DNA from: Aminivibrio pyruvatiphilus
GTDB taxonomy: Bacteria > Synergistota > Synergistia > Synergistales > Aminobacteriaceae
Assembly: GCF_004366815.1 (NCBI RefSeq)
Contig: NZ_SORI01000007.1
Coordinates: 1 to 64,000, forward strand
DNA: 64,000 nt
Direction of reading: 5' to 3'
Part shown: positions 9,212-58,660 of the stretch, piece by piece
How positions within the stretch are numbered: the first letter of the stretch is position 1
How the letters are laid out: every line of letters begins with the position of its first letter
Notes under the pieces: model-generated
Databases searched by the model: none
Told to the model about the DNA's origin: nothing
Seen by the model: only the letters and a program-made list of their open reading frames with translations
Made by a program: the position numbers and the translations under genes

Positions 9212-9293
9212 GGCGATCACTCCGTTTCCGCTTCGCACTCACATGGGGTATCCGACCGGCCCGCCGCTTTTAATCTGAAGTTTCTGTTTTTAC

Positions 9294-9322
9294 AGTATAG
9301 TATCCTTATGCTGTTTCGTAAA
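9294..9322 (-). promoter_or_regulatory. Promoter of the copy-3 beta-helix gene
   Basis: Read on the minus strand: TTTACG (9322-9317), 17 bases, then TATACT (9299-9294), about 83 bases before the ATG at 9211. A short AAAAACAGAAA stretch follows the -10 and recurs upstream of the next copy at about 11060. Confidence 0.6.
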
Positions 9323-57272: not shown

Positions 57273-57336
57273 AAGCTCTTCTTCAGGAAAGAACATGAGC
57301 GGGGCGCTCTCGTGTTAACACAATCCCGAATACAGA

Positions 57337-57460
57337 AGGGGGAGTGCACCAGTGCTCGCTTGGGCCGCCGGCGCACATTGTCGTCCCTGACAACTGCGCC
57401 TGAAACCGACATCCATGTCGGTTTCTCGGCCCGGGCGCTGTGCCTGGCGACACTCCCCCT
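57337..57460 (+). ncRNA. Candidate structured RNA: long rod with a three-way junction
   Basis: Between two convergent genes. Outer helix AGGGGGAGTG (57337-57346) with CACTCCCCCT (57451-57460); CCAG (57349-57352) with CTGG (57444-57447); inner 11-bp helix CGCTTGGGCCG (57357-57367) with CGGCCCGGGCG (57427-57437), including two G-U pairs. Inside that, hairpin GGCGCA...TGCGCC (57370-57375/57395-57400) with TTGTC/GACAA (57378-57382/57389-57393), and hairpin GAAACCGACAT/ATGTCGGTTTC (57402-57412/57415-57425). The G-U pairs would be A-C mismatches on the other strand, so the plus strand is the likely transcript. I recognise no known family (not SRP, tmRNA, 6S or a riboswitch I know). No promoter or U-run is evident. 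Confidence 0.6.
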
Positions 57461-57487
57461 GCAGGAGAATTGATTATTACATTCTTT

Positions 57488-58660
57488 TTACTCGAAGGTC
57501 CCCCGGACGGTGACTTCGCCCTCCTCCATAAGGAGCCGCCCCTTCGCGGCCAGGAACAGGGGCCTGAAGTTTCCGTCGAGGACCAGCACGTCCCCGTCGC
57601 ACCCCGGACGGACCCTTCCCTTCCGGGCCAGCTTCAGGTGGTCCGCCGGATTCGACGTCACAAGGGAGATCACCGTCTCCCTGGATATCTCACCTTCCCG
57701 GAGCATCTCCGCCACCGATTCGAGAACCGATTCCAGGGGGCCCACCTTCAGGCCCGTCATCTCCCCCTTTTCGTTGAAGGAGGGCATGGACCCGTTGCCG
57801 TCGGAGCTCAGGGTGATGTTCCCCGCCGGAACGCCCCTCTCCAGGAGGGTGGCCACCACCGCTGCCGTGGCGAGGCCGAACAGGGGGTTTTTCCCCGGGG
57901 CGGCGGTGATGTCCAGGTACCCGCCCCGGAGCCCGAAGGCCGCGGACTGCTCCACCAGGGCCTCGCACCTGGAAATATGGGTGGGAGCGAACTGGGTGAT
58001 GGGGATGTCCGTTCCCTCCATGGCGTCGAGAAGAGGCGTCAGCCCCGAGGCCTCGCTCCCCATGTGGACGCAGAGGCAGCCCGCCTTGCCGGAGAGGATG
58101 CCCCCCACCCGGACGTTGGAGGCGGCCCGCCGGATCTCCTCCACAGAGGGGTGGGAACTCCGATGGTCCGACACGGCCAGCTTGAGGCCGATCACCTTGT
58201 CGATGAGGCAAAGGTCCCTCGCCACGGAGCCCGTGAGGGTCGGCGAGGGAAGGCCGTAACTCCCCGTGAGGATCCACGTGGAAATGCCCTCCTCCTCGAG
58301 TCCCCTGGCCTTCATGAGGAGTTCCTCCAGGGCGCGGCAGGTGCCGTCGGTCCCCAGCATCCCTACGGCGGAGGTGACCCCCGCCCGGACGAAGGAGGAA
58401 AGCTGGAGGGGCGGGGTCCTGTTGGCCGGTCCCCCTTCGCCTCCGGCACCGTTGAAGTGGACGTGCCTGTCGAGAATACCCGGCATGGTGAGGTTTCCCC
58501 CGGCGTCTACCGTCCTAAAATCGGCGGAGAGGCCTGACAGGGCCGCCGGGTCCGCCGTTCCGGCGGGGTATACGGACAAAATGCGGCCGGCGGCCATAAG
58601 AATGTCGCACAGCCCCTTGTGTTCAGGGTCATACAGGTCGGCGTTCCGAATCAGAAGCAT
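57488..58660 (-). CDS. iadA: Isoaspartyl dipeptidase
   Basis: 390 residues, exactly the length of E. coli IadA, with matching motifs throughout: PGILDRHVHFNGAGGEGGP (metal HxH and Glu), TSAVGMLGTDGTCRALEELLMKARGLEEEGISTWILTGSYGLPS, VIGLKLAVSDHRSSHP (carboxylated Lys and His), VHMG (metal His) and TLSSDGNGS (catalytic Asp). It hydrolyses beta-aspartyl dipeptides from damaged proteins and peptides, releasing aspartate. It has its own promoter at 58726-58754. The gene lies between the structured RNA element and an NhaC-type antiporter gene. Confidence 0.95.
   Translation of the reverse strand: MLLIRNADLYDPEHKGLCDILMAAGRILSVYPAGTADPAALSGLSADFRTVDAGGNLTMPGILDRHVHFNGAGGEGGPANRTPPLQLSSFVRAGVTSAVGMLGTDGTCRALEELLMKARGLEEEGISTWILTGSYGLPSPTLTGSVARDLCLIDKVIGLKLAVSDHRSSHPSVEEIRRAASNVRVGGILSGKAGCLCVHMGSEASGLTPLLDAMEGTDIPITQFAPTHISRCEALVEQSAAFGLRGGYLDITAAPGKNPLFGLATAAVVATLLERGVPAGNITLSSDGNGSMPSFNEKGEMTGLKVGPLESVLESVAEMLREGEISRETVISLVTSNPADHLKLARKGRVRPGCDGDVLVLDGNFRPLFLAAKGRLLMEEGEVTVRGTFE

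Follow-up and report, generated by a model that had tools for sequence, protein, structure and literature searches.

A decayed IS1380-type MITE copy in Aminivibrio pyruvatiphilus with a core resembling the TwoAYGGAY RNA and twin candidate CsrA-binding loops

A 124-nt structured sequence of Aminivibrio pyruvatiphilus (positions 57337-57460 of the window, which is the whole 64,000-nt stretch analysed) is probably, at odds of about seven in ten, a worn MITE that was moved by an IS1380-type element. Its cargo would be an RNA of the TwoAYGGAY type, encoded on the minus strand, whose twin CsrA-binding loops would act on CsrA when transcribed. Binding of CsrA and expression of the twin hairpins are predicted from the sequence, and it is in this sense that we infer them. 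The sequence-only reading was right about the fold but wrong in favouring the plus strand. The features of the locus are as follows:

57272, plus strand: end of the neighbouring aminotransferase-like gene
57297-57309, minus strand: weak terminator-like hairpin downstream of the core on this strand (1 found versus 0.6 expected in shuffles)
57319-57336, no strand: remnant of the left terminal inverted repeat (11 of 17 aligned positions match CCTAAATCCGCAGGCAG, near background)
57337-57460, minus strand (RNA strand): core of the decayed IS1380-type MITE copy (BLAST family, fold and minus-strand Rfam match)
57337-57369, no strand: one arm of the outer stem, between the end and the hairpins (fold and copy alignment)
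57368-57425, minus strand: TwoAYGGAY (RF01731) match (permissive Rfam scan, 42.2 bits, E 1e-5)
57370-57400, minus strand: hairpin GGCGCAGUUGUCAGGGACGACAAUGUGCGCC, with the motif UCANGGANGA in its loop
57402-57425, minus strand: hairpin GAAACCGACAUGGAUGUCGGUUUC, which reads GAAACCGACA-UGGA-UGUCGGUUUC, with the CsrA consensus ACANGGAUGU in its loop
57426-57460, no strand: second arm of the outer stem (fold and copy alignment)
57461-57487, no strand: expected place of the right terminal inverted repeat, which is unrecognisable; target duplication not found
57488-58660, minus strand: amidohydrolase-like gene (name from sequence reading), a minus-strand transcript of which would run into the hairpins

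Fold, strand and twin loops of the window copy

The minimum free energy structure predicted for 57337-57460 (-80.4 kcal/mol; shuffles with a mean of -48.0 and sd of 3.6, z -9.0, 0 of 200 as low) consists of the nested helices that had been described from the letters. The opposite strand yields an equally stable fold (-81.1 kcal/mol, z -8.3), as expected of a DNA palindrome, and folding therefore does not choose the strand. The G-U pairs that were thought to favour the plus strand thus lose their weight, and both the RF01731 match and the hairpins place the RNA on the minus strand. No match was found in the window at the Rfam gathering thresholds; the match from the permissive scan lies 0.8 bits under the RF01731 gathering score of 43 and covers model positions 49-109 only. 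Several sister copies in the same genome (G000) and in two congeners (G001 and G002) pass this score with 43.1-46.9 bits, mostly over the full length of the 168-position model.

Both hairpins of the window copy contain (A/U)CANGGANG(U/A), the CsrA/RsmE-type site in the ten-letter form of RsmE work. The same form is present in both loops of 53 of the 55 hairpin-bearing copies, including nearly all of those with decayed ends. One loop of the window copy reads AUGGAU and the other AGGGAC, so that both fit ANGGAN, whereas AYGGAY is not found in both. The SELEX consensus for CsrA is RUACARGGAUGU with an ANGGAN loop, and very stable stems may be disadvantageous for binding (PMC7652899); the stems here, of 10-11 bp, are longer than those of most SELEX ligands in that study. 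TwoAYGGAY, which has the same type of motif, was predicted by Gardner and Eldai to bind CsrA in Clostridia (PMC4333381).

A MITE family with the ends of an IS1380-type element

A BLAST DNA search located the sequence at 28 places in its own genome (3.35 Mb in 62 contigs), so that it is not a unique RNA gene; the internal hairpins are kept in 22 of these places. Two of the four congeners, G001 and G002, also contain many copies, and none was detected by DNA similarity in congeners G003 and G004 or in 36 more distant relatives. The aligned copies share common ends, CCTAAATCCGCAGGCA...CTGCGGATTTAGG, with the end motif CCTAAATCCGCAG, and diverge beyond them. Perfect 5-bp direct repeats flank 36 of the 46 two-ended copies, compared with a mean of 0.8 when the flanks are reshuffled. 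A copy is typically 165 bp long; loss or gain of internal modules distinguishes variants of 89-446 bp. The family is thus a MITE by its characters: it is multicopy and short, has no transposase gene, shares its ends with an insertion sequence and generates target duplications. Copies were collected by the similarity of the core, which favours those with a preserved core and under-samples those in which it has decayed, but contrasts within copies are not explained by this sampling.

The insertion sequence bounded by the same ends (CCTAAATCCGCAG) is complete in G002 and G004, with the 5-bp duplications CGGTC and ATTTG. In G002 it codes for a 533-amino acid protein that matches the NCBIfam IS1380 model (NF033539, E 3.6e-51) with 174.1 bits, which is 6 bits under the cut-off of 180. 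All that A. pyruvatiphilus shows of it are left and right ends where contigs break, presumably reflecting a collapsed multicopy element, of which such ends are the usual sign; searches of this genome with PF13701 and NF033539 accordingly gave no match. MITEs of the IS1380 family have ISEcp1-like ends and 5-bp duplications. The elements described here resemble them in ends that begin with CC, in 5-bp target duplications and in the match, below the cut-off, of the partner transposase to NF033539, and no IS1380-derived MITE with an RNA cargo was found in the literature searched. The contigs of A. pyruvatiphilus that break inside the insertion sequence are C1, C2, C5, C6, C10, C12, C16, C17, C19, C20, C23, C24, C25 and C40; the breaks lie at fixed distances from its ends, which indicates that the IS1380-type element fragmented this assembly.

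Neither intact ends nor a target duplication was found in the window copy, both ends of which have decayed to near background. On the evidence of core homology it is a retained remnant, which its own ends would no longer allow to move. The orthologous gap measures 57 bases in G001 versus 184 in the window, so the element is absent from that empty site. G002 acquired an insertion in this gap independently; it has the opposite orientation and ATTCG on its flanks. This insertion (L178, G002:C27:23441-23563) replaces the stop codon of the minus-strand gene, the reading frame of which is one Ser codon longer and stops at a TAA supplied by the end of the element (CCTAA). We also considered whether old copies never had the ends of the insertion sequence; this is disfavoured by L060, an old-type core with recognisable ends. 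The three earlier suggestions for the region, a regulatory RNA, a ribozyme-like element and a folded mobile DNA site, fared differently: the sequence is a mobile element with a core resembling a regulatory RNA, and nothing suggests a ribozyme.

Constraint on the hairpins and a second carrier

Constraint was assessed by parsimony changes on an alignment of 41 copies. Pairing is kept in 99.8% of cases in the 57370-57400 hairpin, 98.5% in the 57402-57425 hairpin and 82% in the outer stem. The hairpin stems have 0.18 and 0.35 changes per site versus 1.0-1.1 in the arms and hence evolve about 3-6 times more slowly. The GGA positions of the loops show no change in any of the 41 copies, and the 16 changes at the three variable loop positions coincide exactly with N in the CsrA consensus. 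Both partners of a pair have changed in 16 cells versus 4.6 in shuffles; these mostly represent few events, so covariation, which had been proposed as a check of the fold, lends modest support and is weak evidence by itself. The stronger signal is that the stems and the loop GGA stay constant and the N positions vary. L031 and L056, which are one orthologous copy in two species and have decayed ends, show no difference over 125 nt, while their flanks differ by 7-10%.

These data bear on whether the element is instead a folded single-strand DNA recombination site (attC-like) or another folded DNA target. Both strands do fold strongly, but the ends, the 5-bp target duplications and the partner insertion sequence explain the mobility, and folding alone leaves the invariant unpaired GGA with its free neighbours unexplained; we give this reading almost no weight.

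The twin motif also occurs in genus g30, a member of another Synergistota family, whose genomes contain as many as 20 TwoAYGGAY copies each, scoring up to 59 bits. There the copies sit in a different MITE of about 250 bp with the ends GGGCAYCTCTAAAAAC, and both loops read ACAGGACGU. Perfect 4-bp AT-rich duplications flank 9 of 21 copies versus 0.9 expected (0 of 2000 shuffles as high). Since the same twin motif is found between two unrelated sets of ends, we argue that the hairpins are cargo and not transposase sites. A single-copy TwoAYGGAY match (64.9 bits) is present in genome G174. Another palindromic repeat, in genome G029, contains two inverted TwoAYGGAY-like copies separated by 2 kb (L243 and L250, at C2:75716 and 77697); their second loop resembles a CsrA site less closely, and the repeat is possibly a third mobile carrier.

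A purely selfish MITE, whose hairpins would be structural leftovers without a role as RNA and alike only because the copies are young, would account for the clean transposition signature (36 of 46 with perfect duplications), the near-identity of many copies, the near-random orientation in genus g30 and the failure to see an internal promoter. It does not account for stems and loop GGA that are far more conserved than the arms and N positions of the same copies, for the retention of both motifs in copies that have lost their ends, or for the same twin motif on the unrelated MITE of genus g30. We consider it improbable.

Genomic context, CsrA and known systems

None of the 52 placed copies lies inside a gene, and 88% of the sampled DNA is coding. 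Divergent gaps hold 22 of the 52 versus 22% of the intergenic bases (p 0.001), and convergent gaps hold two. The window copy does lie between two gene ends, as the first reading of the locus had it, but with so few copies in such gaps its convergent setting is incidental. This distribution likewise opposes the idea that the element serves the convergent gene pair as a bidirectional terminator or as a stability hairpin, to which the position between two gene ends and the adjoining terminator-like hairpin might point; moreover, the element is absent from the orthologous gap of G001 and no T-run follows the core. We judge a terminator very improbable.

The intergenic location of all placed copies, in genomes of which 88% is coding, and the enrichment in divergent gaps are also what would be expected if insertions put the hairpins into 5´ UTRs and thereby brought the downstream genes under CsrA control. 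In tandem gaps of the window's genus, the hairpin strand is sense to the downstream gene in 19 of 28 cases and antisense in 9, which has the direction that such cis-acting leaders require. However, this bias is not significant (p 0.09) and is absent in genus g30 (6 sense, 7 antisense), and the window copy, at two gene ends, is outside any leader. Without a consistent orientation a dedicated or fixed leader function is not indicated, and we regard control in cis as unlikely, although it is the alternative that we take most seriously.

A. pyruvatiphilus has one CsrA gene (PF02599, E 6.8e-24), which directly adjoins a gene that we take, by sequence reading, to be FliW-like. CsrA was detected in 69 of 101 relatives and in all eight TwoAYGGAY-bearing genomes that were checked for it. 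The MITE-free congeners G003 and G004 have no detectable CsrA in their assemblies, both of which are fragmented; the joint absence of CsrA and MITE, in these two fragmented genomes among five, is suggestive.

For a cargo RNA that acts on CsrA, read-through that exposes pairs of CsrA sites would be the most economical mechanism. A non-autonomous transposon (MITE) would once have been moved by an IS1380-type transposase. No promoter-like site was seen in the window region; read-through from the minus-strand amidohydrolase gene would transcribe the hairpins as part of its 3´ end. As this gene ends at 57488, its mRNA would include both hairpins and then reach the weak terminator-like hairpin at 57309-57297. 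A CsrA dimer would then bind the two hairpins of a transcribed copy, and about 22 hairpin-bearing copies would provide about 40 extra sites in the genome and titrate CsrA in the manner of CsrB-type RNAs. Binding of CsrA could also alter the stability of the host transcript.

The small RNAs of the CsrB/RsmY/RsmZ type are single dedicated genes with their own promoters. Like them, the elements described here have GGA hairpins in pairs, by which CsrA dimers would be sequestered, but the sites here are dispersed, mobile and, if transcribed at all, transcribed from neighbours. With TwoAYGGAY (RF01731) they share an outer stem and two adjacent GGA-loop hairpins, and several copies exceed its gathering threshold; they differ in being the cargo of MITEs, in dozens of copies, in Synergistota. 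TwoAYGGAY was described from the human gut, gamma-Proteobacteria and Clostridiales in passages that do not mention mobility (PMC2864571). Bacterial MITEs that give rise to sRNAs are represented by QMITE1 and QMITE2 of Coxiella, which are of other element families and are presented with no mention of CsrA in the portion of text searched (PMC5896051), and a paper on an IS200-derived sRNA only suggests testing CsrA (PMC12594629). In the literature searched, no MITE was reported to carry a CsrA-binding RNA. Both TwoAYGGAY and bacterial MITEs are known, and the spread of CsrA-binding sites by mobile elements appears to be undescribed so far.

The present reading connects a predicted CsrA-binding RNA family with MITEs, a link absent from the papers found. 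If it is true, transposons distribute the binding sites of a global RNA-binding regulator over whole genomes by means of two unrelated MITE families in one phylum. It would give TwoAYGGAY a concrete and testable role and predicts that mobile elements titrate CsrA outside Gammaproteobacteria. More tentatively, and with the odds somewhat against it, TwoAYGGAY may generally be a CsrA-binding module that unrelated transposons have carried repeatedly, such that transposition itself would rewire the CsrA regulon or buffer it, or the transposon would profit from binding CsrA.

Several individual MITE copies show further features. In the 446-bp variant (L136/L049, G000:C1:179372-179817) the hairpins are replaced by tandem repeats of the module GATCCTCTCTTCGCCCCTGGCGGGGCGAATTCACCTTATCCCCCAGGG. 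At the other extreme, a MITE of about 49 bp (L148, G002:C49, near 9247-9295) consists almost only of the two inverted ends; it is nested in another element and adjoins a left end of the insertion sequence. Copies in G002 carry block replacements in the outer stem (columns 30-34 and 93-97 of alignment A1), CGGGG on the 5´ side and TCCCCC on the 3´ side, which occur singly or together and suggest recombination or template switching between copies. One MITE copy in a divergent gap has a SAM riboswitch (90.6 bits; L023 2775-2875, G000:C23) at a distance of about 130 bp.
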